Virus record (IMG/VR): IMGVR_UViG_3300043313_000926
Coordinates: 1-22,657 of that record
Source: a virus
Strand: one strand, 5' to 3'
Length of the DNA stretch: 22,657 bases
Shown: positions 3,760 to 22,657 of the stretch, piece after piece
How the letters are laid out: every line of letters starts with the position of its first letter
How positions within the stretch are numbered: the first letter of the stretch is position 1
Made by a program: the position numbers and the translations under genes
The notes under the pieces: model-generated
Databases searched by the model: none
Told to the model about the DNA's origin: nothing
What the model saw: the letters and a program-made list of their open reading frames with translations, nothing else

Positions 3760-4235
3760 GGGCTCCCCTGCGACGCGTCAAACAGCACGAGCCCGTTGCG
3801 CCGGATGAGCATCGCGTCAATCTCGATCTCTTCCTTGAGCGGGTCGGGGCTCTCCTCGTCGCTGCTCGAGTTGCCGGTCCACACGCAGCGCTCGATGGCG
3901 ACGGTAAGCGGGATCTCCCCTATCTCTACGTATTGCACGATGATCTGAAACTCGACGTCGCCGTAGCTCTTGCCGTCCGGCGAGCGTGCGGCGAGTTGCG
4001 TCCGAAAGATCTGGACGCTGTCCTTCCAGCCCGTGAGCTTCACGGGCTCGATCGTGTACTTGCCTCGCGAGCGACCTCGCGGCGCATGGTGCCGGCCTTG
4101 GCCATAGGCCTTCACGCGCTCCCGCTTGTCAGCGAAGCTGATGCTCGTGAAGCCGGTGAAAACGTCCTGGTCCAGCTTGAGGATGATCGATCCCCAGCTG
4201 AGCTGGTTGCCGTTGACGCGGATCTGGTCAGACAT
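3756..4235 (-). CDS. Tail tube protein
   Basis: The 159-residue product is translated from ATG at 4235, with GGGAG just upstream in a sequence that also carries the sheath stop codon TAG, so the two genes are nearly contiguous. It looks beta-rich (IRVNGNQLSWGSIILKLDQD, then DVEFQIIVQYVEIGEIPLTV), as tube proteins are. Gene order sheath, tube, chaperone, tape measure is the standard myophage order. Subunits should stack as hexamers to form the inner tube through which DNA passes. Family assignment rests mainly on position and size. Confidence 0.82.
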   Translation of the reverse strand: MSDQIRVNGNQLSWGSIILKLDQDVFTGFTSISFADKRERVKAYGQGRHHAPRGRSRGKYTIEPVKLTGWKDSVQIFRTQLAARSPDGKSYGDVEFQIIVQYVEIGEIPLTVAIERCVWTGNSSSDEESPDPLKEEIEIDAMLIRRNGLVLFDASQGSP

Positions 4236-4244
4236 GCGCGCTCC

Positions 4245-10066: not shown

Positions 10067-11493
10067 GCGGCCTCGCTTTCGTCGTCGCTGTCGGCAAGCT
10101 CGTCGCCGGGCACGAGTGCCAGCCGGGGCCGCTCGGCGGACGCGGGGTCGAGCACCACGGTGGTTTCGGGCGCACCGTCGCCATTTGCGTCGCCCTTGAT
10201 GGGGATGCCATAGCGGCTCGTGATCGCAGCAATGTCAATCGTGACGCCGTAGGGCGACATGGCCGCGGTGAGCAGCGTGATCGCGTTGGCGGCCGTGACC
10301 ATGCTGGTCGCTTCGCTGTTGCGATCCTTGGGCGGCGTGACGTCCCACTCCACGACGGCCGCCTTGGTCTCGATCGCGTCGACGCCGTAGCGTAGTGCGA
10401 CCACCGCGGGGATGCCCTGGGTGTTGATCGTGTATGCGAGCCCGTCGGCCGTGGCCTTGATCAGGTCGGCGCGGATCGTCTTGTGGATGTCGGAGTTTTG
10501 GAACCCCGCGCCGCCATCGACGGTCACCGTCTGTCCGGCAATCGCGATGATCAGCTCGGTGTTCTGGTCGGCGATCGTCTTGTTGAACGACTCGAACCCA
10601 CGGCCGTTGGACTCGAGCAACTTCACGTCGTAGCCGGGGCGCATCCCGAACACGGTGTTGACGCCCCACGCCATCACCTGCCGGAACCACGATTCGAGCT
10701 GCGCCTCGGCCGCGCCGGCGGGAGCCACGGCGACGCGCGCGGGGTTGGCGAGCTTGGCTTCCCAGTTGTCCTTGTGGAGCGCCGCGTGCTCCTTGCGGAT
10801 GTACGCTCGCCCGATCGCGCGCCACAGGCCGTGCTGCCACGGCGTCATGCGGCCGCCCGGGGCGTGCAGGATCCACCGGCCGTCCCCGGGCGTGATCGGG
10901 ATGAGCCCGGCGATCGAGCGGTAGTACCAGCGGTTCTCCGCCCACCGGTACACGAGGAACTCCGGCGCGAGCCGGACGAACACCGGGTAGTCGCGGCCAT
11001 CGACGGGCACGAGCTCGCCCACGCCCACCCCGAGCAGCTCCCCGTCGGCCGCGAGCAACGCCAGCTCGGTCGGCGGGAACACCTCGTCGAACACCGAGCG
11101 CACCTTGTCGTGGCCGAGCTCCAGGTCGGCGATCACGTCGGCGTCGCCGCGGAACTTCTTGGGCAGGCGCACCAGGCCGCCGGTGCGCGTCGACAGGACG
11201 CCCGACAGGACGCCGTCCTTGCGTGCGGAGGTCATGAGCCGCGCGGCGTCCTCGAGAATACCTGCATCGGCGTTTAACTCGGCGCGCTCGAGGTCCGACA
11301 GGTACCACCGCGTTTGCGTGACGGTCGGGAGCGCGAGCTGCCCACCCATGCGCCGGCGGGTTTCCTCAACGCGCGGATCGTCGAGCCCGCTGGTGCCCTG
11401 GTCGAGCGGGGGCGTCTGGTATGCCGAGCGACCGAGGAGCGCGCCAGCAGCGGCGCTCAGGCGATCTGTGAACAGGCTCACGGAAATGAGCAA
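10063..11493 (-). CDS. Portal protein (DUF935, Mu gp29-like)
   Basis: The 476-residue frame opens with TTG at 11493 (LLISVSLFTDRL); a GTG at 11481 giving a 472-residue form is equally possible, and neither has a clear Shine-Dalgarno. The DUF935 family pattern is visible: SDLERAELNADAGILEDAAR near 65-85, a DGVLSGVLSTRTGGLVRLP stretch, WILHAPGGRMTPWQHGLWRA, the long helix after it, and QNTELIIAIAGQTVTVDGG. The C-terminus is acidic. It forms the dodecameric ring at the capsid vertex through which the terminase packages DNA. It lies one small gene after the large terminase. Confidence 0.9.
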   Translation of the reverse strand: MLISVSLFTDRLSAAAGALLGRSAYQTPPLDQGTSGLDDPRVEETRRRMGGQLALPTVTQTRWYLSDLERAELNADAGILEDAARLMTSARKDGVLSGVLSTRTGGLVRLPKKFRGDADVIADLELGHDKVRSVFDEVFPPTELALLAADGELLGVGVGELVPVDGRDYPVFVRLAPEFLVYRWAENRWYYRSIAGLIPITPGDGRWILHAPGGRMTPWQHGLWRAIGRAYIRKEHAALHKDNWEAKLANPARVAVAPAGAAEAQLESWFRQVMAWGVNTVFGMRPGYDVKLLESNGRGFESFNKTIADQNTELIIAIAGQTVTVDGGAGFQNSDIHKTIRADLIKATADGLAYTINTQGIPAVVALRYGVDAIETKAAVVEWDVTPPKDRNSEATSMVTAANAITLLTAAMSPYGVTIDIAAITSRYGIPIKGDANGDGAPETTVVLDPASAERPRLALVPGDELADSDDESEAA

Positions 11494-11521
11494 GCCACGG
11501 GCGTTTTCAGGGCGCGCGCAA

Positions 11522-11761
11522 CTAACGCAACTGACCCACGCGCCGCACGCGAGTCAGGTTGACAACTGGCCGCTGCCACGAGCCCGGAGAGATCCCGTAA
11601 ATACGCCACAAACGTAGGCGCGGCACGTCCGATGGCGAGGTCAATCCCGATAGCCAGCGGCTCGCCTGGCTCGGGTGAACCCCGCAGCGCGCGGCGACCT
11701 CTCGGCCACAGGTGACCTGCAAGAGCGCGATTAGCGAGCGCCGGGCCGGGCTCACCGCCAT
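11522..11761 (-). CDS. Small helix-turn-helix protein between terminase and portal (79 aa)
   Basis: The start is MAVSPARRSLIALLQ at 11761, overlapping the terminase stop by 10 bp. Residues about 15-60 form a Cro/CI-type HTH (CGREVAARCGVHPSQASRWL followed by LSGLTSPSDVPRLRLWRIY), then GISPGSWQRP and a basic end. The HTH resembles that in the 197-residue protein upstream of the large terminase: both read V-A-A..G-V....W-SG..(P/S)....GI...SW. It may be a regulator or a DNA-binding partner of packaging. No exact family is recognised. Confidence 0.78.
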   Translation of the reverse strand: MAVSPARRSLIALLQVTCGREVAARCGVHPSQASRWLSGLTSPSDVPRLRLWRIYGISPGSWQRPVVNLTRVRRVGQLR

Positions 11762-13398
11762 GCGTCGGCCCCCGCGTAGGGATCGAGCGTCGGGGCCCCG
11801 CTCTCTTGCGCGACCAGCTGCTGTTGAGGGCCCGCCGGGATATTGTCGCGCAGGCTGAGCGGCTCCCAGCAACTGAGCGCCAGCGCGTCGTAGCGATCGG
11901 GCGAGCGGCCGATGAGCTTGCGGACTATGTCCTTCGGCGTGATCTTGAAGCGCCCGTTGGCGAACTGCTTCCACTCGAACGCGTGCAGCTCGCGCTCGAG
12001 CTTGGTGTCTTCCAAAATCGCGCCGCCGTCGCGGAACCACTGCTCGAGGTTCGCGGCGAGCTCGTCGCGCATGCGGTCGTAAATCGCTGGCATGCGCACC
12101 GCCTTGTTGCTCGCGCGAACTCCGACGAGCTCAAAGGCCTGCGGGTTGCCGTCGGCGTAGTTGCGCAGCACGACGTGCAGCTTCGAACCGATCGAGCCCT
12201 CGCAGTCCAGCACGACAACCGGCGTCTCGCGCTGCAGCTTGAGGCTCGAGATGTGCACGAGCAGTTGCGTGAGGTGCTGCTCCTCGTTCATGCCCTGGTG
12301 GGCGCGCAAGAGCAGCTGCTTGAAGCCGCGCCGCGCACAGAACACGGTTTCGTCGCCGCTGCCCGTCTCGCCCGCCGGGTCGAGACCGATGAACAGCCGA
12401 CCCGCGTCGCTCGTGTCGGCCCAGCGCTGCTCGGCCTGGGTGATGGTGTGAATCGAGAAGATCTTCCCCGCCTCGGCGAGCGCGTGCAGCCCCTTGACGC
12501 GGATGGTGTACATCGCGCTGTTCGGGCCCCACTCCTGCTTTTTCTCCTCGATCCACTCGCGGGTCGCGAGGCCGGGCACCACGACGCGGCCCTGCACAAC
12601 GTTCGGCGTGTCCTCCGACGAAACAGTGATCGTGCGGTAGTGGGCCGTCTTTCCGTGGAAGGCCTCGTAAAACTCTCCCTCGTTGCACGTCGGGTTGCTG
12701 AACATGGCGATCCGAGCGCCGCCCGCACGGTTGCCCTCGATCGCCTCGAAGATGTCGTCGCCGATGCCGCTTGCTTCGTCGGCCAGGTACAGCAGGTTAC
12801 GCCCCGAGATGCCGGCGACGGCCTCGGCCTCGCGCGCGGTGAACCCGACGATTTCGCGGAAGTCGCGCGACTTTAGGCCGGTGCGCGCGAGCTCACCCTG
12901 CTCGCCATCGATCAGTGTGGAATGCTCGCACGGCCGGGCTATCACGAGTCCGTCGGGATCGGCTGTTTTGCACGCAACGCAGCGCCCGCCACGCGCGCGC
13001 ATCATCCGCAGTTCGCGCCATAGGATCTGGTCGACCTGGCGGGACGTCGTCGACGTCATCACCACGCGCGCATCCTCGAAGCTGCAGTAGTACCAGAGCG
13101 CGATCCCCGCGGCGGTGTGCGACTTGCTGACCTTGTGACCGGAGCGCACGGCGACGCGGGGGTGGTCGCGCACCGCTTCGATGATCTCAATCTGCTTGGC
13201 CCACGGCTCGACACCGAGCACCTGCCGAAAGAACTCGACTGGCTTGTCACGGTACAGCGGCGACGGGAAGCGCACATGCGTCGCGAGCGTGCACTCGAGC
13301 AGCAGCTCGTCGCGGAACGAGGCGGCGAACGTCGCCCGCTCGACGGGCCGGCGACGTGACTTTCGATCGGATACCTCGGCCGCGATCGACGTTGTCAT
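11752..13398 (-). CDS. terL: Terminase large subunit
   Basis: A 548-residue packaging motor beginning MTTSIAAEVSDR at ATG 13398, with GGAG upstream. The ATPase half has an atypical Walker A at about 85-93 (RSGHKVSKS), a Walker B ending in Asp207-Glu208 (NLLYLADEASG) and a coupling SNPT motif. The nuclease half has FIGLDPAGETGSGDE, VVVLDCEG and DRYDALAL, supplying the acidic residues of an RNase H-like fold. Cys140, Cys143, Cys157 and His159 form a zinc-knuckle-like insertion between the ATPase motifs. It translocates DNA into the prohead and cuts the concatemer. Confidence 0.94.
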   Translation of the reverse strand: MTTSIAAEVSDRKSRRRPVERATFAASFRDELLLECTLATHVRFPSPLYRDKPVEFFRQVLGVEPWAKQIEIIEAVRDHPRVAVRSGHKVSKSHTAAGIALWYYCSFEDARVVMTSTTSRQVDQILWRELRMMRARGGRCVACKTADPDGLVIARPCEHSTLIDGEQGELARTGLKSRDFREIVGFTAREAEAVAGISGRNLLYLADEASGIGDDIFEAIEGNRAGGARIAMFSNPTCNEGEFYEAFHGKTAHYRTITVSSEDTPNVVQGRVVVPGLATREWIEEKKQEWGPNSAMYTIRVKGLHALAEAGKIFSIHTITQAEQRWADTSDAGRLFIGLDPAGETGSGDETVFCARRGFKQLLLRAHQGMNEEQHLTQLLVHISSLKLQRETPVVVLDCEGSIGSKLHVVLRNYADGNPQAFELVGVRASNKAVRMPAIYDRMRDELAANLEQWFRDGGAILEDTKLERELHAFEWKQFANGRFKITPKDIVRKLIGRSPDRYDALALSCWEPLSLRDNIPAGPQQQLVAQESGAPTLDPYAGADAWR

Positions 13399-13511
13399 AC
13401 AGCTTCTCCGTCGCGCGTCCGAGCGCCGCGGTTGCGTACACTCATCGTAGTGTGTGACTCAAATCCACGCGAGGTAAGCGCTCGTTGCCGATCCGGTCGG
13501 CGCACCAGCGG

Positions 13512-14105
13512 TTACACGTCGAGGCGAGCCAGCTCGTCCAGCAGGAGCTTGCTGCACCGGGGGCAGCCGGCGGCGATCTTGGTCAGTGAACGCCGCAAGG
13601 CTTGCCACTTCGGGTGCTCGGCGATGATCCGGGACTCGGACAGGTCGGCCTCTCGCTCGAGCCGATGCCGCAAGGCGAGCACCCGCGCCTCGGTGTCGGT
13701 GAGCTTCACGCGCTCCGCCGGGGTGAGGTTCTCGGCGTTGCGCGCCTGCCGTATCGTCGCGTGCAGGGCCAGGCAGTCGGCCAGGGTGGTTGGTGTAGCG
13801 GCCGGCGGCGGCAGCGGCTCAGCGGGCGCGACAGGGGCCGCGCCGGGCTGCACGCCCCACGACGCGGCGGGTATGCCGAATGCGGTGAACAGCTTACCCC
13901 GCATCACCGACGATGGGACCTCTGCGCCCGATCGCCACTGCTGCACCGCCTGCCGGGAGACTCCGACCGCGGCCGCAACCACCGCGAGCGTGACCCCGAG
14001 CTGCGCCAAGAGCCGCTGGCCTTCGTTGCGGATGACAACCGGTTGCGGGCGCCGCCCGGGGCGTTTGATCGGGTCGGGCGGGTTCGGCACTGCGCTGGGT
14101 TTCAT
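13512..14105 (-). CDS. HTH DNA-binding protein, probable terminase small subunit
   Basis: A 197-residue protein immediately upstream of the large terminase. Residues about 32-75 are an HTH (LGVTLAVVAAAVGVSRQAVQ, then QWRSGAEVPSSVMRGKLFTA and FGIPAASW). A Pro/Ala linker follows, then a helical C-terminal domain (TLADCLALHATIRQARNAEN, LRHRLEREADLSESRII, HPKWQALRRSLTKIA). An N-terminal HTH plus a helical oligomerisation domain beside terL is the small-terminase layout. The start has no Shine-Dalgarno but an in-frame stop lies just upstream, so it cannot begin earlier. A regulator is the alternative. Confidence 0.72.
   Translation of the reverse strand: MKPSAVPNPPDPIKRPGRRPQPVVIRNEGQRLLAQLGVTLAVVAAAVGVSRQAVQQWRSGAEVPSSVMRGKLFTAFGIPAASWGVQPGAAPVAPAEPLPPPAATPTTLADCLALHATIRQARNAENLTPAERVKLTDTEARVLALRHRLEREADLSESRIIAEHPKWQALRRSLTKIAAGCPRCSKLLLDELARLDV
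14036..14045. promoter_or_regulatory. Palindrome CAACCGGTTG inside the HTH gene
   Basis: A perfect 10-bp palindrome within the first 25 codons of the HTH gene. It matches the palindrome CAACTGGTTG at 14108-14117 at eight of ten positions in the same CAAC-NN-GTTG form. The two lie 72 bp apart, close to seven helical turns. A possible operator pair for autoregulation; only sequence form supports it. Confidence 0.35.
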
Positions 14106-14107
14106 GT

Positions 14108-14117
14108 CAACTGGTTG
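14108..14117. promoter_or_regulatory. Palindrome CAACTGGTTG at the start of the HTH gene
   Basis: CAAC-TG-GTTG ends 3 bases from the ATG at 14105, occupying the place where a Shine-Dalgarno would normally be. A bound repressor here would block expression of the HTH/small-terminase gene. Related to the palindrome at 14036. Candidate operator, unproven. Confidence 0.38.
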
Positions 14118-14179
14118 TCAAGCTACCGATTTCGGAAAACCTCACCGGAACAAACTCTCGCGGCCCCCCGGCCTTCAAA

Positions 14180-14204
14180 CCCCCGGCACTGTTAGGCCCG
14201 GGGG
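14180..14204 (-). terminator. Possible weak terminator hairpin
   Basis: On the minus strand CCCCCGG (14204-14198) pairs with CCGGGGG (14186-14180) across an 11-nt loop and is followed by TTTG. The stem covers the stop codon of the 116-residue gene. The 86-bp gap that follows is the second longest in the window outside the terminase leader, so a transcription unit boundary here is plausible. The T tract is short, so confidence is modest. Confidence 0.4.
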
Positions 14205-14542
14205 TCCGTGGAACGTCGGCGACGCCGCCTGTGTGCTTTCATCCGCCGCTCGCCGTCCTTGCCGAAGCCAGCAAGTGGCCGCGTCGCCGTCGCCTCGTGC
14301 GCGTGCCGCTCGGCGTAGTCTGCGAACCACTCCTCGGCCGTAGTCACCGGCACCGGGCATGGCCGCTGGGCGAGCAACTGCGCATCGAGCTCGGCCAGCA
14401 TGGCGCGTTCGTCGTCGGTGAGTTCACGGCGCGTGGTGGCACGGACGTAGCCCGGACGCTCGAACGGCAACCCCGGCACGCCCTCGAACCGCAGGCCGCA
14501 GGCCATGAGGAACGCGTGCAGGTCGTCGTGGCTGCGCTTCAT
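14192..14542 (-). CDS. Hypothetical protein (116 aa)
   Basis: The start MKRSHDDLHAFLMACG at 14542 overlaps the previous stop as ATGA. The middle has an acidic helix (TDDERAMLAELDAQLL) and the motif TTAEEWFADYAERHAHE; the C-terminus is a basic run ending in about six arginines, which could bind nucleic acid. No membrane segment or catalytic motif is visible. Last gene of the small-ORF chain before the packaging module. Function unknown. Confidence 0.72.
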   Translation of the reverse strand: MKRSHDDLHAFLMACGLRFEGVPGLPFERPGYVRATTRRELTDDERAMLAELDAQLLAQRPCPVPVTTAEEWFADYAERHAHEATATRPLAGFGKDGERRMKAHRRRRRRSTDPRA

Positions 14543-15000
14543 GACGACCTCCTGGCCGCGCGCTTTGCTGCCCTCTTTGCTGCCTTCAACTTCCTCTTCT
14601 GCTCGAGTAGCCGTGCCCAGCGCTCCGGGTCTGCTTTCATCCGCTGGTACGATGCCCGCCCGGCCGCGAGCTTGCTTGCGCGGTACTCGGGATCGGTGTG
14701 CCAGCGCGCCCGCTCGCGCTGGTACGTGCGCCTCTTGTTCTGCGCGAACCACTCCTTGTGGTAGCCAAGCTGCTTGGCACGGTACTCCGCGTCCGTGTGG
14801 TACCGCGTCCGCTGTCTTTCGTTTTTGGCCTTGCGCTGCTCGGTCGATGGGCCACGGCGAACGCGGAACCTGGACGCCTCACGGCCGCGAGCGCGTCGCT
14901 GGCTGTCAAGCGACTCCATCGCCTGGGCGGTGTCGTGGACGCGCCATGTGAAATGCCCGAACTCCTCGGCGAGCTCATCCTGTAGGAACAGCCAGCTCAT
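14539..15000 (-). CDS. Basic repeat protein of unknown function (153 aa)
   Basis: The start is MSWLFLQDELAEEFGHF at ATG 15000 with GGAG 8 bases upstream. After an N-terminal domain of about 45 residues come two copies of a roughly 33-residue unit with the core HTD[AP]EYRA, and a third decayed copy (ADPERWARLLEQK). The region is very rich in Arg/Lys and helical. Similar basic repeats occur in DNA-binding and HNH-associated phage proteins from memory, but no HNH motif is present. Nucleic-acid binding is inferred from charge only. Confidence 0.75.
   Translation of the reverse strand: MSWLFLQDELAEEFGHFTWRVHDTAQAMESLDSQRRARGREASRFRVRRGPSTEQRKAKNERQRTRYHTDAEYRAKQLGYHKEWFAQNKRRTYQRERARWHTDPEYRASKLAAGRASYQRMKADPERWARLLEQKRKLKAAKRAAKRAARRSS
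14671..14808. repeat. Two-copy DNA repeat inside the basic repeat gene
   Basis: Near-identical stretches of about 35 bp at roughly 14671-14706 and 14773-14808 (shared core GGTACTC then TCNGTGTG) lie 102 bp apart and encode the HTD[AP]EYRA units. The period is a multiple of three, consistent with in-gene duplication. Confidence 0.6.
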
Positions 15001-15033
15001 AGCTCAAGCTCCATCGGCGTGGTCATGCGCTCA

Positions 15034-15240
15034 CTACCCTCGTTCGTCCTCGAGCGGATCCTCTTCGCCGAGTCCCGCGAGGTCCGCGCCACCGCCGCCA
15101 GGCCTGATCCCAACAAGCCACCCCGCAGCGCGCCAGGTGAGCTCGTAGAACGCCCCCGCCGCGCAGAGCATGCTGATGCCCGCGACCAGGCCGAGGCCGA
15201 GCGCGAGCTGCACGCAACTGCGGAACTGCGAGCGCGGCAT
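15034..15240 (-). CDS. Small membrane protein (68 aa)
   Basis: The start MPRSQFRSCVQLALGLGL at 15240 follows the previous stop by one base, with GGAGG about 10 nt upstream. One clear hydrophobic segment (LALGLGLVAGISMLCAAGAF), a second moderate one (TWRAAGWLVGI), then an acidic tail (EEDPLEDERG). Size and topology fit a holin-like or accessory membrane protein, but small phage membrane proteins cannot be assigned by sequence look alone. Confidence 0.68.
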   Translation of the reverse strand: MPRSQFRSCVQLALGLGLVAGISMLCAAGAFYELTWRAAGWLVGIRPGGGGADLAGLGEEDPLEDERG

Positions 15241-15241
15241 G

Positions 15242-15406
15242 TCACGGCAGCCTCCACCCGAACGCGGCGGACATGAGCAGCAGCGTGCCCACCAGCGCCA
15301 GCACCCAGCCCATGGCATTGGCAAACGCAGGCGGATGCTGCGCCTTGCTCACCCACGCGGCTATCACGAGCCCCAATGCAATGAACGCTCCAGCTTCTGC
15401 TCCCAT
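15242..15406 (-). CDS. Small two-helix membrane protein (54 aa)
   Basis: The start MGAEAGAFIALGLVIAAW at 15406 has a TAGGAG ribosome binding site 7 nt upstream; the TAG in it is the stop codon of the upstream gene. Two hydrophobic helices (AGAFIALGLVIAAWV and MGWVLALVGTLLLMSAAF) are joined by a short polar loop, SKAQHPPAFAN. Hairpin membrane proteins of this size include class II holins, so a lysis role is possible; nothing further supports it. Confidence 0.7.
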   Translation of the reverse strand: MGAEAGAFIALGLVIAAWVSKAQHPPAFANAMGWVLALVGTLLLMSAAFGWRLP

Positions 15407-15416
15407 GACTGAACTC

Positions 15417-15830
15417 CTACGCCCACTCGGGCAGCTGCGATTGTTGAAGCTTGCGCTTGGCCTCACTGGCCTTGCTCGCGCAGGTCGGCCCGCACACCGA
15501 GCGCTGCAGGTCGCCGAGTATCCGGCCACTGCGCGGGATGGTGTTGGCCGGCAACGGACTGCCGCAGCCAAGGCACCGCCGCACCCGGCGACGCAGCTCG
15601 GTTGTTCTCGCGACCACCTGGACCAGCGACACGTCCGGTGCGGGCTTGCCTTTGGCATGCATAGCCCCGATGTCGCAGCGCCGGCAACAGCAGCCGGTAA
15701 TACCTTCGACAATAGGCCGAGAGCTGCCCTTGCTGGCGAAGCTCTTGTGTCGTGCCGCGCAGCTGCGCCGGCTGATGCGCCCGTGCAGGTGCGGGCACTC
15801 GAACACCTCGGCGAGCTCGAGCCGAGTCAT
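15417..15830 (-). CDS. Cys-rich, probable zinc-binding protein (137 aa)
   Basis: The start MTRLELAEVFECPHLHGR at 15830 overlaps the DUF3309 stop as ATGA. Cysteine clusters run along the protein: FECPHLHGRISRRSCAARH near the N-terminus, GCCCRRCDIG in the middle, CLGCGSPLP and CGPTCAS near the C-terminus. The C-terminal pair CLGCG...CGPTC is a zinc-ribbon arrangement of the CxxC-CxxxC type. The C-terminus is basic. Likely a DNA- or protein-binding accessory factor; no family recognised. Confidence 0.74.
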   Translation of the reverse strand: MTRLELAEVFECPHLHGRISRRSCAARHKSFASKGSSRPIVEGITGCCCRRCDIGAMHAKGKPAPDVSLVQVVARTTELRRRVRRCLGCGSPLPANTIPRSGRILGDLQRSVCGPTCASKASEAKRKLQQSQLPEWA

Positions 15831-15976
15831 ATGCGCCCCATTAGAAACAGAATCAGCAGGACGAACAACAGCACCCCGACCGGAGACCAACTGGCCCAGC
15901 CGTAGGTGGTTGAGGTCCACCCGCCGCCGGCCACCGCGACAACGAGCAAGATGATGAGCATGGTTGCGAGGGTCAT
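15827..15976 (-). CDS. DUF3309-like small membrane protein (49 aa)
   Basis: The start MTLATMLIILLVVAVAG at 15976 overlaps the previous stop as ATGA. Two hydrophobic segments surround a polar YGWASWSPVG, and the protein ends VLLFVLLILFLMGRI. This matches my memory of DUF3309 proteins, which have the form short helix, W/Y/G-rich turn with SP[SV]G, then a Leu/Ile helix ending in LLGR[IL]. The family is widespread in bacteria and some phages with no established function. Confidence 0.75.
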   Translation of the reverse strand: MTLATMLIILLVVAVAGGGWTSTTYGWASWSPVGVLLFVLLILFLMGRI

Positions 15977-16308
15977 GTCGCACCGCTTCTTTCCGCCTTC
16001 AGCCGGACGAGCCGCGCAGCCTCGCGCCAACGAGGCCGCATCCGCTCGCACCACTTGCGATGCCGTGCTCGATCTGCTCGCCGCCGCGCGCGATAGAGCG
16101 CGCAAGCCTGCCGCCTGTACGCTCGCCAACCGTCGGGGCCGAGCTCCAGTTTTTTGAGGGCCTGGTTGCGCCGGGTCCGTTCGCGCGCAGCCAGGGCCTG
16201 ATACTCAGCCCGGATCGCCAGCGCCAGCTGAACATCCTCGCGACGAAACGAAAGCGTCTCGAACTCCGCCCCGATCTCAGCTCGTAAGACTGCGCCATCC
16301 CATCCCAT
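15973..16308 (-). CDS. Basic hypothetical protein (111 aa)
   Basis: The start MGWDGAVLRAEIGAEFE at 16308 is chosen over a more upstream ATG because AAAGGA lies about 10 nt before it. An acidic N-terminal third (AEIGAEFETLSFRREDVQ) precedes a long Arg-rich helical region (RRQACALYRARRRADRARHR, MRPRWREAARLVRLKAERS). Probably binds nucleic acid or acts as a charged adaptor; no motif supports a specific role. Confidence 0.72.
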   Translation of the reverse strand: MGWDGAVLRAEIGAEFETLSFRREDVQLALAIRAEYQALAARERTRRNQALKKLELGPDGWRAYRRQACALYRARRRADRARHRKWCERMRPRWREAARLVRLKAERSGAT

Positions 16309-16325
16309 GTCACACCGTCCTTTCG

Positions 16326-16559
16326 CTAGAAGGCAAAGCCCCGCCCGGGTGTCCACTCCCGGACGGGGCCATCACCACCGGCTCTAAAGCTGGCCGGCCC
16401 GCATTTTCTTGCGCGTACCTGCACCGGGCGGCAGGAGGGCCGCTCGGCTGCGCCAGAGTCTTGCGAATGCTGCTGCTGCCACAGTGCGAAGCCGAGTGCG
16501 GCCAGTAGCGCTACGACCAGCAACAGAACGAAGGCTTCGATGTGGTGTTGGCGGTGCAT
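16326..16559 (-). CDS. Small single-pass membrane protein (77 aa)
   Basis: The ATG at 16559 overlaps the previous TGA as TGATG. After MHRQHHIEA comes one strong membrane segment (FVLLLVVALLAALGFALW), then a polar, Cys-containing region. The last part of the gene encodes a 12-bp hairpin (16338-16369), so its C-terminal sequence may be constrained by RNA structure. Together with the neighbouring 87-residue membrane/coiled-coil protein it may belong to a spanin-like lysis set; speculative. Confidence 0.66.
   Translation of the reverse strand: MHRQHHIEAFVLLLVVALLAALGFALWQQQHSQDSGAAERPSCRPVQVRARKCGPASFRAGGDGPVREWTPGRGFAF
16338..16369 (-). terminator. Strong hairpin, possible terminator or attenuator
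   Basis: On the minus strand GCCCCGTCCGGG (16369-16358) pairs with CCCGGGCGGGGC (16349-16338) over 12 positions with one G-U, loop 8 nt, followed by TTTGCC. It lies in the 3' end of the 77-residue gene, 30 bp before the next start. The U tract is short, so partial termination or RNA stability control are equally possible. Confidence 0.45.
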
Positions 16560-16822
16560 CAGTTCGGCCCCGCCGCGTGTGTGAGCGCGGTGATTTGTTC
16601 GAGCCGCTCGATGCGTTGCCTGCAGTCGGCCACGAACCGCGCGCCCTCTTTTGCGTTCCCTGCGATGAGCGAGTTCAACTCCGCCTGCCGCGCGAGCATG
16701 TCCGCGAGGTCGCCCAACCGAGCCCGCTGCTTGCGAAGTGCCCAGCAGATCGCGATGAGCTGTGCGCTCACAAACACGCCCCAAAAGAACGTCACCGCTA
16801 GCAGCACGATGGCGCCCGTCAT
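16559..16822 (-). CDS. Membrane-anchored coiled-coil protein, possible i-spanin (87 aa)
   Basis: The ATG at 16822 overlaps the previous stop as ATGA. An N-terminal membrane segment (IVLLAVTFFWGVFVSAQLIAI) is followed by a basic patch (RKQRAR) and about 45 residues of helix (LGDLADMLARQAELNSLIAG, RFVADCRQRIERLEQITAL) ending in a short polar tail. One N-terminal anchor plus a periplasmic helix is the layout of Rz-type inner-membrane spanins. The neighbours upstream and downstream are also membrane proteins. Assignment is by topology, not homology. Confidence 0.68.
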   Translation of the reverse strand: MTGAIVLLAVTFFWGVFVSAQLIAICWALRKQRARLGDLADMLARQAELNSLIAGNAKEGARFVADCRQRIERLEQITALTHAAGPN

Positions 16823-17199
16823 GGCGCCGGGTCCTTGGGTGCCGGCGGTGGCGCCGCGATGAACCGAACTGGCTGAATCACCTCGGGCCCAGGGGGTGGC
16901 ATGCTCACCGGCTTCATGGATGCCATCGACGTCCCGGCCTTCGCGATCGGCTGGGTGCGCGGCAGCGGCCCGACCACCACGCGGGGAAGCACCCGCCGCG
17001 CAGCGTCGAGGGCGACGATCAGCCAGTCGAGCCCAGACGCCAGGCGCGTTACTGCCTCGTCGTCGGCTTTGGTCGCGGTCTTGGCAGCGATGGCAGCTAG
17101 CGCCGGGATGAGCACCCGGATGCCCATGGCGATCGAGGTGGTGGTACCGAGCGCTGCTAGCGCTGCGTCGGCGGGGTGGGCGAGTATCCAGTCGATCAT
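16819..17199 (-). CDS. Holin-like membrane protein with Pro-rich tail (126 aa)
   Basis: The ATG at 17199 overlaps the previous stop as ATGA. Residues 8-40 are hydrophobic (PADAALAALGTTTSIAMGIR, VLIPALAAIAAKTA), then an amphipathic helix (DEAVTRLASGLDWLIVALDA) and a disordered Pro-rich C-terminus. The helix-plus-amphipathic-helix form recalls LLH-type holins. No endolysin was found near it, so this is a lead only. Confidence 0.68.
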   Translation of the reverse strand: MIDWILAHPADAALAALGTTTSIAMGIRVLIPALAAIAAKTATKADDEAVTRLASGLDWLIVALDAARRVLPRVVVGPLPRTQPIAKAGTSMASMKPVSMPPPGPEVIQPVRFIAAPPPAPKDPAP

Positions 17200-17459
17200 T
17201 TTTCATCACTCCGTTCATCCAGTCGCTGATGTGCGTGCTCGGCCATGCGCTGCTCGAGCTGGCGCGCGCGCTCGCGTTCAATGCCGTCGAGCATGCCCGC
17301 GACGTACCTGTCTGAGCCGATGGGCGGTGGACCAGGGGGCGCAATGGGGTCGGGCCGCAGTCGGGTTTGCGCGGCGCCGACGGCTCGCTTGGCCACGTCG
17401 AGCAGCACTTCGCCGGCAGCGGTGATCAGGATCTTGCCTACTATGCCGACGATGCTCAT
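17196..17459 (-). CDS. Hypothetical protein (87 aa)
   Basis: The start MSIVGIVGKILITAAGE at 17459 overlaps the previous stop as ATGA. The first 32 residues form a membrane-active or amphipathic helix (VGIVGKILITAAGEVLLDVA), followed by a Pro-rich linker (PDPIAPPGPPPIG) and a charged helix (IERERARQLEQRMAEHAHQ). This layout occurs in small tail-associated or membrane-associated phage proteins. Function unknown. Confidence 0.68.
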   Translation of the reverse strand: MSIVGIVGKILITAAGEVLLDVAKRAVGAAQTRLRPDPIAPPGPPPIGSDRYVAGMLDGIERERARQLEQRMAEHAHQRLDERSDEK

Positions 17460-17686
17460 GACCGGCCGCCGTTCGCCCGCACGCGCTCGGCGTACGTCAT
17501 GGAATCGGCCGCCACCCATGCGCGCTGGTGCTCAACACGGCCCGTGTCGGCAGTGAGGAGCACCCGCCACCGCTTGCCATTGCTCAGCACCGGACCGAGT
17601 GCGTACGTGCCCGACCGACCGCACCAGGCGCAGAGCCAGCCGCGTTCGCCGAGCTGCACCAGGCCGCTGCAGTTGGTGCAGTTCAT
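17456..17686 (-). CDS. Small zinc-ribbon protein (76 aa)
   Basis: Starts MNCTNCSGLVQLGERGWLCA at 17686 in an ATGA overlap with the cupin gene. CxxC at residues 3-6 and CAWCG at about 19-23 form a compact zinc ribbon. The remainder (VLSNGKRWRVLLTADTGRVE, VAADSMTYAERVRANGG) is a short mixed alpha/beta segment. Zinc ribbons of this size bind nucleic acid or protein partners. No specific family recognised. Confidence 0.74.
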   Translation of the reverse strand: MNCTNCSGLVQLGERGWLCAWCGRSGTYALGPVLSNGKRWRVLLTADTGRVEHQRAWVAADSMTYAERVRANGGRS

Positions 17687-18168
17687 GGTGCACCCTCACA
17701 GCCGCGACCGATCGCGCCGCTGTCTTGCCCATCAGTATATTGCTTCCAATGCACCCACCCGTGCGGGCAGTGGAAGCCCCACTCGCGCACCACCGGGCCG
17801 GTGATGAACAACGACCAGCAAGGTGCACTGACCTCGAGCCGGTGTGCGGCCCACGGCAGCCGGAACACCACGTCACCTGGGCGACGCTCGGCGCGGTGGT
17901 GGATGCCGCCCTTCGCAATGGTGTGCTCGATGTAGCTGCCATCGAGAATGATCGACACGTTCGGCCACGGGTGATCGTGCAGCGCTCGGTCGTCGTCCGA
18001 GCGGCGGAGTTCGTGAACATACATGTTGCCGAAGCGATTGCGCGGGATGAGGTACCATCGGCGCAGGTACGGGTCGGCCGGGCCGCCGATCACGAAGTTG
18101 GGCGCCCGCTTCTGCGCCCAGCCGATCAGTTCGACGGCGAGCGCGTTGGTGGCGTGCTGGTCAAGCAT
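17683..18168 (-). CDS. Cupin-fold protein (161 aa)
   Basis: The second of two adjacent ATGs is taken as start (18168) because GAGGG is then 5 nt upstream; starting at 18171 adds one Met. The segment ALHDHPWPNVSIILDGSYIE has the cupin G..HxH.....G pattern (His64 and His66 with the later Glu/His) that binds a metal, and GDVVFRLPWAAHRLE is the second cupin motif with its His. Cupin proteins of this form occur in phages as accessory genes of unknown substrate. A sugar- or small-molecule enzyme, or a structural barrel, are both possible. Confidence 0.78.
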   Translation of the reverse strand: MLDQHATNALAVELIGWAQKRAPNFVIGGPADPYLRRWYLIPRNRFGNMYVHELRRSDDDRALHDHPWPNVSIILDGSYIEHTIAKGGIHHRAERRPGDVVFRLPWAAHRLEVSAPCWSLFITGPVVREWGFHCPHGWVHWKQYTDGQDSGAIGRGCEGAP

Positions 18169-18472
18169 CATCGCCCTCGTCGCGCGGCTGCCCGCTTGCG
18201 ATGAACGCGTCGAAATCGGCGACCGCCTGGTGCGCTGCGGTGATGGCCAGGCGCCGGCAATCAGGGTCGTGCTCGCTGCGCAGCCTCGCCGTTCCCAACT
18301 TCGTGAGGTAGGCGCCGAGCCAGCACCAGCGGCGCACGTCGCCACGAGCTAGTGCGTCTTTGCACTCGACGTAGTCAGAGAGCGCGCAAACAGCATCAAT
18401 AAGCTGGCCAGGCGCGCCGGGCTCGGCCTCCGCCTCCTCCAGGCGCAGCCGGATAAGCTCGAGCAGCGTCAT
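18161..18472 (-). CDS. Helical hypothetical protein (103 aa)
   Basis: The start MTLLELIRLRLEEAEAEP at 18472 overlaps the previous stop as ATGA. The sequence is almost fully helical (LRLEEAEAEPGAPGQLIDAV, ALSDYVECKDALARGDVRRW, CRRLAITAAHQAVADFDAFI) with several Cys that do not make a CxxC pair. It ends in an acidic tail. Probably a small adaptor; no family recognised. Confidence 0.7.
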   Translation of the reverse strand: MTLLELIRLRLEEAEAEPGAPGQLIDAVCALSDYVECKDALARGDVRRWCWLGAYLTKLGTARLRSEHDPDCRRLAITAAHQAVADFDAFIASGQPRDEGDDA

Positions 18473-18705
18473 GCGGCTGCCTCCTTCCTCGCCCGTCGCC
18501 GTTTCATCGCCCGGCACTTCCGCTGAAACCAACAGTCGGTGCAGAGCTCGCCCCTGGCGTCGTACTTGTCGCTGTCGCCGCCGGCGCACGCGGGTTTGAC
18601 CAGTCGGCAAGCAGCGCACTTGAACAACGTGCACTCTTCGCCGTGCTCGGCCTTACGCACGCAAGCGTGGTCCTTCGCGTACGGGCAGTGAACGGGGCCG
18701 GTCAC
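18469..18705 (-). CDS. Small Cys-rich zinc-binding protein (78 aa)
   Basis: The start is GTG 18705 in a GTGA overlap with the lipoprotein gene. Cysteines at about 7, 14, 25, 30, 33, 40, 55 and 58 include CTLFKCAACRLVKPAC and LCTDCWFQRKC, enough for two zinc sites. The C-terminus is a basic run (KRRRARKEAAA). Likely a nucleic-acid or protein-interaction module; family unknown. Confidence 0.74.
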   Translation of the reverse strand: MTGPVHCPYAKDHACVRKAEHGEECTLFKCAACRLVKPACAGGDSDKYDARGELCTDCWFQRKCRAMKRRRARKEAAA

Positions 18706-19103
18706 TTGCCCTCACCCTCAACGGCCGTGCCGACCCGCTGCAGGAAGTCACGGCCGCGCGTGGCCGCAGCAGCTGCCTTGGCTTTCTCCTCGGTCGCTGG
18801 CTGTTGCGTGGTGGGTTCACCTGACATCGGACGCGCTTGCGGTGCCGACAGAAGCGCTGCGAACTGGTCGACGGCCTGGTCGACGACGCACGCGACCAGC
18901 TCCGCGCCGTGCTCTTGCGCCAGCCGCTCGAGCTCGGCGCTGGGCTCGACATCCGGATTGAGCAATACGTCTTGCACCGTGCCGAGCAGGTCGCTGTGTC
19001 CGATGTCGGTGCACTTCGCGACTGCCGGCCAGTCGACACGTGGTGGGCTGCTACCGCCGCAGCTGATGAGCAGTACGAAACAGACGGTGGTGATCGTTCG
19101 CAT
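18702..19103 (-). CDS. Predicted lipoprotein (133 aa)
   Basis: A lipoprotein signal is visible: MRTITTVCFVLLISCGGSSP has a charged start, a hydrophobic core and the lipobox LISC with Cys15 followed by GGSS. The mature part is acidic and helical (SAELERLAQEHGAELVACVV) with a Pro/Ala/Lys tail. The start ATG follows the RuvC-like gene by five bases, with AAGG upstream. A phage lipoprotein may be an outer-membrane spanin or a superinfection-exclusion factor; the sequence does not decide. Confidence 0.75.
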   Translation of the reverse strand: MRTITTVCFVLLISCGGSSPPRVDWPAVAKCTDIGHSDLLGTVQDVLLNPDVEPSAELERLAQEHGAELVACVVDQAVDQFAALLSAPQARPMSGEPTTQQPATEEKAKAAAAATRGRDFLQRVGTAVEGEGK

Positions 19104-19108
19104 GGTGT

Positions 19109-19735
19109 CTAGCCTTTCGTGCTCGGCAGCCCGTAGCTCAGTCGCAGTTTGTCGAGGTACAACCGCTCGACCTTGGTGCTTGGTGGTGGAAGCTGGCCGG
19201 TGAGCGCGAGACCGAGCTGACAGAGCGCGAATGCGTCCGCGTCGTCGTCGTTGCTAAACACGCGCTGGTGCTGCACCGCGAGCGTCGAGACCATGATGTC
19301 TTTGCTTCCGACGCCGTTGCCGGTGACGAACTTTTTCAGCGACGACGGTGCGGGTTCGATGATCGGACACTGCGTCAACTCGCACAGCCGCCAGCGCAGC
19401 ACACCGCCGAGCTCTGCGCGGTCGTGGTGACCCTGCTGCTTGCGACTCGCTGACCCGTACGAATAACCCTCGATCAAGATCAGGTCGAACTGTTGCGCGT
19501 GCACGAGTTCGATCACGCCGCGGATCACCCGTTCGTACCGTGCGACTCGATCGCGCACGGTCGATGCTGGCTTGCTCGCCCAGCGATTGGTTTCGATCCG
19601 CTTACCGGGGACCGAGTAACAGATCGCAAAACCGGTCAGCGACGGGTCGATGCCGAGCACGCACTCGCCGAGCAGCGGCGGCACCCACTTGGCTGCGGGC
19701 GAGTCGAACAGGCTGAGGGCGGCGCTGGCTTTCAT
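19109..19735 (-). CDS. RuvC-like Holliday junction resolvase
   Basis: Starting at ATG 19735 (ATGA overlap) gives 208 residues. The RuvC catalytic set is present: Asp30 in VLGIDPSLTGFA, Glu89 in LILIEGYSYG, and the C-terminal acidic cluster DDDADAFAL with Asp164 and Asp167. Between them are SLKKFVTGNGVGSKDIM (the lysine/glycine pattern of RuvC substrate binding). The enzyme should resolve recombination or replication branches before packaging. It follows the primase and helicase and precedes the small-ORF block. Confidence 0.88.
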   Translation of the reverse strand: MKASAALSLFDSPAAKWVPPLLGECVLGIDPSLTGFAICYSVPGKRIETNRWASKPASTVRDRVARYERVIRGVIELVHAQQFDLILIEGYSYGSASRKQQGHHDRAELGGVLRWRLCELTQCPIIEPAPSSLKKFVTGNGVGSKDIMVSTLAVQHQRVFSNDDDADAFALCQLGLALTGQLPPPSTKVERLYLDKLRLSYGLPSTKG

Positions 19736-20190
19736 TTCTGGCACTCCGGACAACCCACGCGGCCGCATTCGTTACCCGGTTCGCACCCGAACGACGGGTC
19801 GCTGCCGTAAAGCTTGCTGAGCTCGCGTTGCAGCGACCGCCGCTCGCTGTCGTCCTTGTTGGTCTCGAACTGCACACGTTGGTGGACGAGCTCGAGCTCG
19901 GCCCGCAGCTCCCGCACCTTCGCGATCAACTTCGGCAGCGCGTGGCGGGCGGCCTCGATGAAGCGCGCGTTGTCGAAGCGACTGGCGCCGCCCCACGCTT
20001 CCGCGACAGGGTGGTGACCAGGTGCGATCAAACCATCACCATGCTCGTCGCGCGTCCACGGCCCAGGCGTCGCCGCTTCGCAGATCCGCTCGAGTTCGTC
20101 GAGGTAGCCGGCTAGTGCCTCGGCCGCGGTGGTGGACAATGCCGGTGGCGGCGCGTCGCTCGGTGCGCGCACCCGGATCGGCTCATCCAT
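19732..20190 (-). CDS. Phage protein with ATPGPW motif (152 aa)
   Basis: The ATG at 20190 is preferred over GTG 20202, because TGAGG lies about 7 nt before it. The core GYLDELERICEAATPGPWT, a WGGASRFDNARFIEAARHAL segment and a coiled-coil (VRELRAELELVHQRVQFETN) match a family of Ea22/Ead-like phage accessory proteins known for the ATPGPW sequence. The C-terminus has a CGRVGCPEC zinc-ribbon-like motif. The role in phage is not established. Confidence 0.74.
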   Translation of the reverse strand: MDEPIRVRAPSDAPPPALSTTAAEALAGYLDELERICEAATPGPWTRDEHGDGLIAPGHHPVAEAWGGASRFDNARFIEAARHALPKLIAKVRELRAELELVHQRVQFETNKDDSERRSLQRELSKLYGSDPSFGCEPGNECGRVGCPECQK

Positions 20191-20198
20191 GGTCGGCC

Positions 20199-20432
20199 TC
20201 ACCCATTGGCGGGCTCTTTGCGTTGGAGGCCAGTTAGCATCCGAACGGTGGCGGTGTCCTCGGGGCGCGCCTGCCGGTCGATGTACCGCCGCACCGCCCG
20301 CACTGCGAGGTCGCGATAGGTTGTCAGCTCGTTGGCCAGGTCCGCGTCGCCCTGCGCCCGCAGCTCTACCAGCATGCGATCAATCTCGCGCACTGCCGGT
20401 CGCACCACGTCACGTGTTGTGTTCATTGCCAT
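20199..20432 (-). CDS. Small helical hypothetical protein (77 aa)
   Basis: Two in-frame ATGs, 20432 and 20426, are possible. AGGAA sits 2-3 nt before the first and 8-9 nt before the second, and the second gives an ATGA overlap with the stop of the repeat-built ORF, so it is at least as likely. The protein is helical and charged (REIDRMLVELRAQGDADLAN, YRDLAVRAVRRYIDRQARP). Function unknown. Confidence 0.72.
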   Translation of the reverse strand: MAMNTTRDVVRPAVREIDRMLVELRAQGDADLANELTTYRDLAVRAVRRYIDRQARPEDTATVRMLTGLQRKEPANG

Positions 20433-20839
20433 GGTTCCTCGGTTGCTCGTTGCCGTTGCACTCCTGTCGGTTCCACGTGGAACAACCGTGTCCCGATCTC
20501 GCCGGACACGGTTCCGTCAAACCGCGCCGTTAGACCGTGTCCGCAAACCGTATCCCGCTTGGCCGCTGAAAAGCCCCGAGGACTCCGTGTCCAAAGCGTG
20601 TCCCACTGCGGTTTTGAAAAGCGTTGCCGAACAACCGTGTCCCGTTTTTCAGGCAAATTGACCGCGTCCCGAAACCGTGTCCGGGCCCTCTTTTTCTTCA
20701 GAAGAAAAAGAGAGAGGCGCCAGACACGAGACACCGCGAACTTTGGACACGCTTGGGACACGGTCGGACACGGTGGTGATTTAGGGTGTGTCCATCTAAA
20801 TGGCGGACACGGTTGGGACACGGTGGACACGGTGGTCAT
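20423..20839 (-). CDS. ORF built on the decamer repeat array (138 aa), possibly non-protein function
   Basis: The ATG at 20839 overlaps the helicase stop as ATGA, and its own stop overlaps the next ORF as ATGA, so it is wired into the coupled chain. The protein is low in recognisable structure, with repeated words from the DNA repeats (TVSQPCP, CPTVSQACP, KRDTV, TRFRD, RDTV) and one Leu/Lys block LSLFLLKKKRAR that encodes the central palindrome. The DNA seems to be the conserved object, and it may or may not make a functional protein. See the repeat entries. Confidence 0.5.
   Translation of the reverse strand: MTTVSTVSQPCPPFRWTHPKSPPCPTVSQACPKFAVSRVWRLSLFLLKKKRARTRFRDAVNLPEKRDTVVRQRFSKPQWDTLWTRSPRGFSAAKRDTVCGHGLTARFDGTVSGEIGTRLFHVEPTGVQRQRATEEPWQ
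20469..20484. promoter_or_regulatory. parS-like ParB-binding site
   Basis: GGTTCCACGTGGAACA contains the perfect 14-bp palindrome GTTCCACGTGGAAC at 20470-20483. It differs at one outer base from the chromosomal parS form TGTTCCACGTGGAACA. It lies one base before the first decamer of the array and inside the repeat-built ORF, where it encodes FHVEP. No parA or parB is in the window, so recognition by a host or distant ParB is implied. Binding is inference from sequence. Confidence 0.72.
20485..20833. repeat. Iteron-like array of ACCGTGTCCC decamers, orientation switched at centre
   Basis: Copies matching ACCGTGTCCC at eight or more positions start near 20485, 20534, 20547, 20584, 20595, 20634, 20661 and 20674 in plus orientation. 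In the right half, reverse copies (GGGACACGGT-like) start near 20744, 20755, 20765, 20804, 20815 and 20824; one reverse copy sits at 20504. Neighbours in clusters are 9-13 bp apart, about one helical turn. The halves face each other across the palindrome at 20688-20712. Downstream of primase and helicase genes, this resembles a replication origin. Confidence 0.75.
20688..20712. repeat. 25-bp AT-rich palindrome at centre of the array
   Basis: CTCTTTTTCTTC (20688-20699), a central A, then GAAGAAAAAGAG (20701-20712) form a perfect 12-bp inverted repeat with a one-base centre. It is strongly AT-rich and purine/pyrimidine polarised in a GC-rich region and marks the point where the decamers change direction. 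Candidate for DNA unwinding or cruciform formation at an origin. Confidence 0.6.
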
Positions 20840-21990
20840 CGGGCCACCTCGCCAATGCGGTATTCGCAAGCCTTGCCGGCGCTGCCGCTGGGCAGCATCA
20901 CCACCCTGCCCTCCTCGAGCAGGGCGTCGAGGACTTCATCCACCCGGCCACCGCGATAGCCAGCCCGAGCGCGCAGGAACCGCTTGCTGCACCCGGCGTG
21001 GCCCTTGACGAGCTCGAGCAGCACCTTGGCGTCGCGCTCATACCGCTCGTCGGGCTTCGGCGGCGCGTTCACGGCCAGCTCGGCATGCACCACCCGGACA
21101 CCGGTGGGCGAGCCTTCATCGTCGAGTACGTCCTCGATCCGCAGCCCGAAGTCGTCGATCCCTGCCGCCTCAGAATCAGCCGGCGGCTTGGCCTGCTGCA
21201 CAATGCGCGGGTCCTCCTTGCGCTTGGGGTTGGTAACGAGCAGCACGCAGCCGGCGGCGTCAAACAGCGCGCTGCTGCCCCGCAGCATCATGCGCGCATC
21301 CGTCTGCCCTTCCTTGGGCTTGCCGGCGTGGTGCAAGAGCAGCACGGTCGTGCCGGTCTTTTCACTCACCTGTGTGAGCACATCGACGAATGCCCGCACT
21401 CCTGACGCGTTCTCATCCTCGCCGGGCAGAGCACCGCGCAGCGAGTCGATCACCACCAGGCTCGCGCCATCACATGCCTTCGCGTACACATCGAGCGCGG
21501 CTGCGCTGTTCAAGTAGCAGGTCGGAAACGGCGCCACGAACAGGTTGTTGACGATCTCGCGAGGGTCAAGGCCCATCCCGCGGGCAAGGCGCTGGTAGCG
21601 GCGCGCGGTAGCCTTGAAGCCCTGCTCATAGTCCAGGTGCTTGGCGATGCCACGCTCGCAATGGAACTTGCCCCACACCGGTACGCCCGCGGCGACCGAC
21701 AGGATCATGCTCTGCGCGGCCATGGTTTTCGCACTCGCGCCGTACCCAGCCAGCATCGCGGGCCGGCCGGGGCCTATCTGCAGCTCCTTGCTCACCCACG
21801 GCGTGGGCGGCAACGGCAAGAACACCTCGCGCCCCAAGCGCCACTGAATCGTCGCTGCAGCTCGGCGCAGTGACACCGCGTTGCTACCGTTGCCGGAGCC
21901 GTTGGCCATGACCTTGCCGATCGGCTCGAACTGTCCGCCGCCTGCGACGTAGTCACTAAGGTCCTTCGGTGGCGGCGCGTCGTCTCTCAT
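20836..21990 (-). CDS. RecA-fold replicative helicase/ATPase (RepA/DnaB-like)
   Basis: Starting at ATG 21990, which overlaps the primase stop as ATGA, gives 384 residues; a further upstream Met at 22005 is less likely. Walker A is at 82-89 (GYGASAKT), Walker B ends in Asp182 (LVVIDSLRG), and LLLHHAGK follows, the pattern of the RecA/DnaB AAA_25-type ATPases paired with phage and plasmid primases. The C-terminal 80 residues look like a winged-helix (VLLELVKGHAGCSKRFLRAR, VDEVLDALLEEGRVV). It should unwind DNA at the fork, loaded near the repeat array. Confidence 0.85.
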   Translation of the reverse strand: MRDDAPPPKDLSDYVAGGGQFEPIGKVMANGSGNGSNAVSLRRAAATIQWRLGREVFLPLPPTPWVSKELQIGPGRPAMLAGYGASAKTMAAQSMILSVAAGVPVWGKFHCERGIAKHLDYEQGFKATARRYQRLARGMGLDPREIVNNLFVAPFPTCYLNSAAALDVYAKACDGASLVVIDSLRGALPGEDENASGVRAFVDVLTQVSEKTGTTVLLLHHAGKPKEGQTDARMMLRGSSALFDAAGCVLLVTNPKRKEDPRIVQQAKPPADSEAAGIDDFGLRIEDVLDDEGSPTGVRVVHAELAVNAPPKPDERYERDAKVLLELVKGHAGCSKRFLRARAGYRGGRVDEVLDALLEEGRVVMLPSGSAGKACEYRIGEVAR

Positions 21991-22657
21991 GCAGCCGACT
22001 CCCAACGCTCGACCCGCACGTTTCGGTGCGCAAAACTCTCGGCGATGGCAACGGCGTATCGCTCACCCGATTTATCGGGATCGGTAGCAACCACCACGGT
22101 GGACCCATCGGCGATTCGAGCCGCGACCGTGGGCGACCAGGATCCGCTCACAACGCCAAAGGTCGCGGGCGCGCACTCGGCCGCGTCGGACCACTGTATC
22201 CCCGCCATGAGGAAGTCGACCTCGCCCTCGGCCACCACCACCCGCAGCTCGGTGCTGCATGGCCACCAGTCTGGGCGCTGACCGTTCGCGAGTAGCCACC
22301 GCCCAAACCCATCGGCCATCAGCAAACCGGCCCGCCCAAAACCGCTCGGGGCAAAGCTCTTGATCTCCGCAGTACCGTCGATGTTGCGAGCCAGCACGCT
22401 GCGCATTAGGCCGCGCTCGTCAAAGAGCGGCACGATCAGCCGGTGGCCGCTCTCGACCCAGCTCACATGGCGCTTCACGTCCATGTCCCACCGGCCCGCC
22501 CACGCCGGCACAGCCTTATCAACGGGCAGCGCACGAGCGAGATCGAAGCTGGTCACTAGCGTCGGCCAGACCTTGCGACCTGCGAGGTACTCGCGCACCG
22601 CCGGGTCGGTATCCACGGGCACGCAGCCGTCCCAGAAGCACCGCACCTCCGCCTCGG
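21987..22657 (-). CDS. TOPRIM primase, N-terminus beyond window edge
   Basis: The frame is open to the right edge (reads EAEVRCFWDGC at the boundary), so the start lies outside; an internal GTG at 22646 is not convincing as a start. The visible part has LRVVVAEGEVDFLMAG with the TOPRIM Glu, and VVVATDPDKSGE with the DxD of the TOPRIM metal site. A zinc-finger domain probably precedes it. It should make primers for the helicase encoded next. Family: DnaG/phage primase of the DUF3987/CHC2 group, not resolved further. Confidence 0.85.
   Translation of the reverse strand, partial: EAEVRCFWDGCVPVDTDPAVREYLAGRKVWPTLVTSFDLARALPVDKAVPAWAGRWDMDVKRHVSWVESGHRLIVPLFDERGLMRSVLARNIDGTAEIKSFAPSGFGRAGLLMADGFGRWLLANGQRPDWWPCSTELRVVVAEGEVDFLMAGIQWSDAAECAPATFGVVSGSWSPTVAARIADGSTVVVATDPDKSGERYAVAIAESFAHRNVRVERWESAA

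Follow-up and report, generated by a model that had tools for sequence, protein, structure and literature searches.

A block of small, very probably accessory genes in a contractile-tailed phage whose relatives carry the endolysin after the tail genes

A cysteine dioxygenase has been named among the auxiliary metabolic genes of Paraburkholderia phage IPK (PMC12446147). A protein of phage IPK is 61% identical to the product of a cupin gene in IMG/VR virus record IMGVR_UViG_3300043313_000926, the whole of which (22,657 bases) was analyzed and is referred to here as the window. The cupin gene is one of 16 open reading frames (ORFs) that form a block of small genes at positions 14192 to 19103 on the minus strand, with RuvC on one side and the packaging genes on the other. 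The original prediction, made from the letters of the DNA, had the place and small gene size of this block right, with a count of about fifteen; it saw no wall hydrolase there, took the slot to be one that in most phages holds lysis or host-takeover genes, and proposed either that lysis is encoded elsewhere or that the block has nonstandard lysis or anti-host functions. We consider it very probable that the block is an accessory small-gene region of the phage and that the endolysin lies elsewhere, after the tail genes.

The lack of a wall hydrolase in the block held up: the 16 block proteins gave no such match in Pfam or PHROGs at an expectation (E) value of ≤1, and a six-frame search of the window with PF01510 (Amidase_2) and PF00959 (Phage_lysozyme) was empty. 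The search for the endolysin in the rest of the genome was run on relatives, which were retrieved with TerL, the cupin, the products of 16819-17199 and 14192-14542, and endolysin as queries, and it was found at the end of the tail module. One relative, G002 (IMGVR_UViG_2199352024_000011, 22.0 kb), is collinear with the window from the helix-turn-helix (HTH) protein through gpD, with 67-85% identity for most genes and 59% for the HTH protein; it differs in that it extends to the endolysin and does not reach the block. Past gpD, it carries baseplate J, fiber-like, and lectin-like genes and then ORF 3-554 on the minus strand, which matches PG_binding_1 (E = 1.4e-9) and Amidase_2 (E = 1.2e-12) and inside which the record ends. 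The left edge of the window corresponds to about position 7430 of G002, and the endolysin starts about 6.9 kb further out.

A second relative, G007 (IMGVR_UViG_3300042822_000036, 48.9 kb), is taken to be a closed circular genome because its AAA gene, which is split over both contig ends, joins in frame across a 6-nt overlap. It resembles the window in its primase (91%) and AAA (76-86%) genes, in 12 of the 16 block genes, which are in order (block at 39.3-45.8 kb), and in the packaging genes that come after the block. It carries an integrase, TerS, TerL, and portal, and the other head-tail genes of this genome were assigned from ORF order and sequence. It differs in lacking the cupin, the CxxC protein (17456-17686), and the ORF at 16559-16822; in having a C5 cytosine DNA methyltransferase within the block (PF00145, E = 2.3e-18; G007 43455-45311, corresponding to 3455-5311 of locus L090); and in having the endolysin inside the record. 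The tail module finishes with that endolysin (15458-16246; PHROG endolysin, E = 5.5e-28; Amidase_2), which the whole structural module separates from the block 23 kb away. Block genes and the same endolysin-after-tail arrangement are also present in G001 (62 kb) and G008 (33 kb); the position after the tail genes, outside the span of the window, was checked in these two, G002, and G007. In six-frame searches, exactly one Amidase_2 domain was found in each of G001, G002, G007, G008, and G014, which supports the proposal that lysis is encoded elsewhere; PF00959 was absent from the same five relatives.

The window is a fragment that ends inside the tail module. By comparison with these relatives, we infer that the endolysin of the window phage lies approximately 6.9 kb beyond the left edge, behind the tail genes, and that it is missing because the contig is truncated. 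The apparent anomaly is removed, since in this phage group a normal amidase-based lysis gene follows the tail genes. For the same group, the expectation of lysis genes in the slot of the block does not hold. Directly after the endolysin, a one-helix membrane protein is encoded in G001, G007, G008, G014, and G015, the last of which has a homologous endolysin (53% identical to that of G002) that was missed by the PF01510 search. In locus L098 (G015), positions 10798 to 11775 hold the endolysin, the one-helix membrane protein, and then a lipoprotein, an order like that of an endolysin/inner-spanin/outer-spanin set, and it is plausible that the three form a lysis cassette. Neither the membrane protein nor the lipoprotein that follows the endolysin matched a named lysis family by profile. 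In the window phage, the endolysin would likewise be followed by a one-helix membrane protein, a candidate holin or spanin.

Several points weigh against this account. The endolysin of the window phage itself is not seen, and its place is taken from G007 and from G002, whose proteins are about 80% identical. The TerL proteins of G007 and G008 have no detectable similarity to that of the window, and no structural gene matches; the whole-genome synteny leans on two different relatives. A holin gene is not assigned in any phage of the group, and most block genes are without an assigned function.

The block ORFs are real genes. Homologues of 15 of the 16 were found in related contigs, with ratios of nonsynonymous to synonymous substitution rates (dN/dS) of 0.09-0.75, mostly 0.2-0.4, indicating purifying selection; the sole ORF without a homologue in the loci examined is 16559-16822. 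GC content at third codon positions ranges from 0.69 to 0.85 across the block. Eleven of the 15 junctions overlap (nine by 4 nt as ATGA or GTGA, one as TGATG, and one by 11 nt), and the other four are gaps of 1, 10, 17, and 33 nt; the earlier statement that nearly every junction is ATGA, GTGA, or TGATG was slightly overstated. Overlaps are also common in the replication module (4 of 5 junctions) and the structural module (8 of 14), and coupling is therefore not distinctive of the block. The protein classes that had been read from the sequence are present: one lipoprotein, three Cys-rich proteins (9, 4, and 10 Cys), one cupin, and at least five membrane proteins, hydropathy giving one or more hydrophobic helices in seven ORFs. 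The proposed DUF3309 protein aligns over nearly the full length of PF11752 but scores 21.6 bits, just under the gathering cut-off of 22.3.

The block genes are part of a tightly spaced series on a single strand; most keep their order in the relatives, among which some have been gained or lost. The genes at 15242-15406 (kept more widely than any other block gene) and 14192-14542 and the lipoprotein gene are widespread. Those at 17196-17459, 15034-15240, and 18469-18705 are common to the window, G007, and G008, and that at 16819-17199 is shared by these and G001. The cupin gene and its CxxC partner are present in G003 to G006 and absent from G007 and G008, which marks them as accessory. The block is conserved in G007 and G008 although their TerL and structural genes are dissimilar to those of the window; therefore, the boundary between the block and TerL looks like a module exchange point. 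Overall, the block is very probably an ordinary set of small accessory genes that is rapidly reshuffled.

The block product with a recognizable enzyme fold is the cupin, in which H65 and H67 (HxH) and H110, invariant among 58 phage proteins, form a predicted three-His metal site. With an AlphaFold2 (AF2) model of this protein (predicted local distance difference test [pLDDT], 81), the best Foldseek matches were YubC and ergothioneine dioxygenase (E = 3e-7 to 5e-7; template modeling score, 0.54-0.60), and the cupin profile matched PDB cysteine dioxygenase sequences at an E value of about 0.003. Curated models for cysteine dioxygenase type I gave no Pfam match at E ≤ 1 and no NCBIfam match. By profile the protein is a PHROG 4786 member, as modeled it has a cupin fold, and it is predicted to be a thiol-dioxygenase-type enzyme. 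Given the cupin here and the C5 methyltransferase in G007, which is likely an anti-restriction gene, the block is best read as accessory genes for host interaction and metabolism, a reading that we infer for all but the cupin fold. The products would act on host metabolism, membrane, or DNA during infection or lysogeny, the Cys-rich proteins may serve as zinc-binding regulators or adaptors, and some of the genes plausibly have a host-interaction role.

A more specific reading, in which the small membrane and Cys-rich proteins serve to inhibit functions of the host or to overcome its defenses early in infection, appears rather unlikely to us. The block is near the replication genes, the methyltransferase is at the same place in G007, and gene content varies among the relatives, all of which is as such a role would predict. 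However, no PADLOC model was matched at E ≤ 0.1 and no NCBIfam model above its cut-off by the ten block proteins scanned in each case, no toxin or anti-defense family of Pfam, PHROG, or NCBIfam was found above cut-off among the block proteins, and that sister phages conserve several of the genes is also compatible with housekeeping roles. Matches to lysis, toxin, or PADLOC models did not rise above noise, and the suggestion of nonstandard lysis or anti-host functions in the block was not supported. The small membrane proteins of 17196-17459, 16819-17199, 15242-15406, and 15034-15240, whose genes are kept in order while the adjoining head-tail module is exchanged, could be an undescribed set that acts on membranes. 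They would then include a holin that the whole structural module separates from its endolysin, or would serve to take over the host membrane; we think this unlikely.

Lysis might also be split, with the endolysin after the tail genes and the holin and/or spanins among the small membrane proteins of the block (candidates at 16819-17199, 17196-17459, 15242-15406, and 16326-16559, and the lipoprotein). The seven small proteins with a hydrophobic helix, several of them strongly constrained by purifying selection and retained in phages with differing structural genes, are consistent with this, as is the fact that no holin was recognized by profile beside the endolysin. The Rz-like match of 16326-16559 (E = 0.13-0.24) would point the same way but was rejected as nonsignificant, the block lipoprotein does not adjoin a membrane partner, and the conserved one-helix protein directly 3' of the endolysin in five phages, with the lipoprotein of L098 making a fuller cassette, is the usual arrangement. 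We consider split lysis quite improbable. Lysis by the window phage without any endolysin, through a single gene or otherwise in a nonstandard way, would fit a window with no hydrolase but is hardly credible, since the window stops partway through the tail module, an Amidase_2 endolysin is present at the end of that module in those relatives that extend so far, and synteny contradicts it.

The members of the block (Table 1) include families of small phage genes on which selection acts and which have no confident match in the family libraries searched. This set of families and the closed 48.9-kb relative are the reusable outcomes of the analysis.

Table 1. Features of the small-gene block, from right to left. 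Percentages are identities of homologues; G and L numbers are handles for related contigs and loci.
Feature	Coordinates	Strand	Evidence
Lipoprotein, 133 aa, LISC lipobox	18702..19103	minus	Sequence; homologues 80% G008, 63% G007, 34% G001
Cys-rich, 78 aa, 9 Cys, GTG start, probable zinc-binding	18469..18705	minus	90% G008, 79% G007; dN/dS 0.2
Small soluble protein, 103 aa	18161..18472	minus	67% G008, 59% G007; dN/dS 0.2-0.35
Cupin, 162 aa, phrog_4786 "cysteine dioxygenase"	17683..18171	minus	Profile match, E = 4.1e-56
Small CxxC..CxxC protein, 76 aa, travels with cupin	17456..17686	minus	57-64% in G003-G006; dN/dS 0.26-0.31
87 aa, N-terminal hydrophobic helix, charged C terminus	17196..17459	minus	61-64% G007, G008; hydropathy
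Membrane protein, 126 aa	16819..17199	minus	Weak phrog_9685/phrog_402 match; 78-84% G007, G008; 54% G001; dN/dS 0.12-0.47
87 aa, one hydrophobic helix and charged C-terminal part	16559..16822	minus	Among loci examined, this phage only; absent from G007, G008
Single-helix membrane protein, 77 aa	16326..16559	minus	C-terminal frame one base off relatives
GC-rich hairpin, 12-13 bp stem, 8-nt loop, then TTTGCCTT	16330..16370	minus	Minimum free energy -31.9 kcal/mol for 61 nt, z -2.6
Basic protein, 111 aa	15973..16308	minus	59-70% in G007, G008, L002
DUF3309-like membrane protein, 49 aa, two hydrophobic stretches	15827..15976	minus	63-71% in L002, G007
Cys-rich, 137 aa, probable zinc-binding	15417..15830	minus	All ten Cys invariant in six homologues
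Membrane protein, 54 aa, two hydrophobic stretches	15242..15406	minus	51-87% in relatives examined; dN/dS 0.09-0.35
Membrane protein, 68 aa, one hydrophobic helix	15034..15240	minus	76-84% G008, G007
Basic protein, 153 aa, repeated YHTDxEYR-type motifs	14539..15000	minus	Sequence; 69% in G010
116 aa protein, residues 1-88 conserved, C terminus divergent from most relatives	14192..14542	minus	64-83% in relatives examined

The lipoprotein matched no family above cut-off in Pfam, PHROG, or NCBIfam, and neither 16819-17199 nor 15417-15830 had a match in protein searches of the phage collection; the AF2 model of the latter is poor (pLDDT 59). The Pfam family dCache_3 was rejected for 16559-16822 (21.3 versus 25.7 bits) as a helix or composition match, as were other subthreshold matches. 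The repeated motifs of 14539-15000 suggest possible nucleic-acid binding. Past residue 88, the C terminus of 14192-14542 is unlike that of G007 and G008, and this site is at the border where the structural module has been swapped between relatives. Within 16326-16440, the window has one base more than G007 and G008, which shifts the C terminus of ORF 16326-16559 to another frame; the frame of the relatives continues to a stop near the start of the following gene. The extra base could be real or a sequencing error. The hairpin within this ORF is kept in three phages (the window phage, G007, and G008) and, standing in mid-block amid otherwise coupled genes, is possibly an internal terminator.

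The window has a GC content of 67%, and every recognized gene is on the minus strand. From the right end leftward, it carries primase (Toprim), an AAA_25 ATPase, two small ORFs, a PHROG 722 protein, RuvC (phrog_159, E = 1.8e-30), and the small-gene block, followed by the HTH protein, TerL, a small HTH-like ORF, portal, S49 protease, a small capsid-region gene, and the major head protein. Head-tail joining genes, tail sheath, tube, and tape measure genes, and the start of a gpD-like gene severed by the left end complete the order; structural genes without a profile match were named from position and sequence. The source is an uncultured, contractile-tailed phage that is probably temperate. All TerL matches in the phage collection were below 60% identity (25-28% among the matches listed), and the lineage therefore appears to be missing from the deposited phages. 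An alignment of RuvC against genome contigs gave no relatives, and an alignment of the endolysin against them gave a single match, from Planomonospora, that at 38% was too distant to name a host. A promoter scan of 11400-22657 found no sigma-70-like site, a result that is uninformative for an unidentified high-GC host. A 201-nt gap at 3100-3300, between a 152-aa gene and the tape measure gene, is where a tail-chaperone frameshift extension is usually located.

An array of 13 GGACACG copies in 350 bases (20487-20836) adjoins the AAA_25 helicase gene; the whole window has one more copy. The array contains a perfect 12-bp palindrome (20688-20712, CTCTTTTTCTTC-A-GAAGAAAAAGAG), and the copies to its left are mostly in the opposite orientation to those on its right. 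A weak ORF (20423-20839) overlaps the array. G007 shows this layout too, at 47.9-48.25 kb, with another repeat (GGACGAGT) and a palindrome of its own. Judged by this arrangement, 20487-20836 is a probable replication origin.

Compared with known systems, the cupin is like PHROG 4786 in its profile match, its invariant HxH and His, and its cupin fold, and it differs in being without a Pfam or NCBIfam dioxygenase match, its activity being only predicted. The lysis enzymes of the group are phage endolysins of the Amidase_2 (PF01510) plus PG_binding_1 (PF01471) kind, absent from the window and encoded, in the relatives, where the tail module ends.

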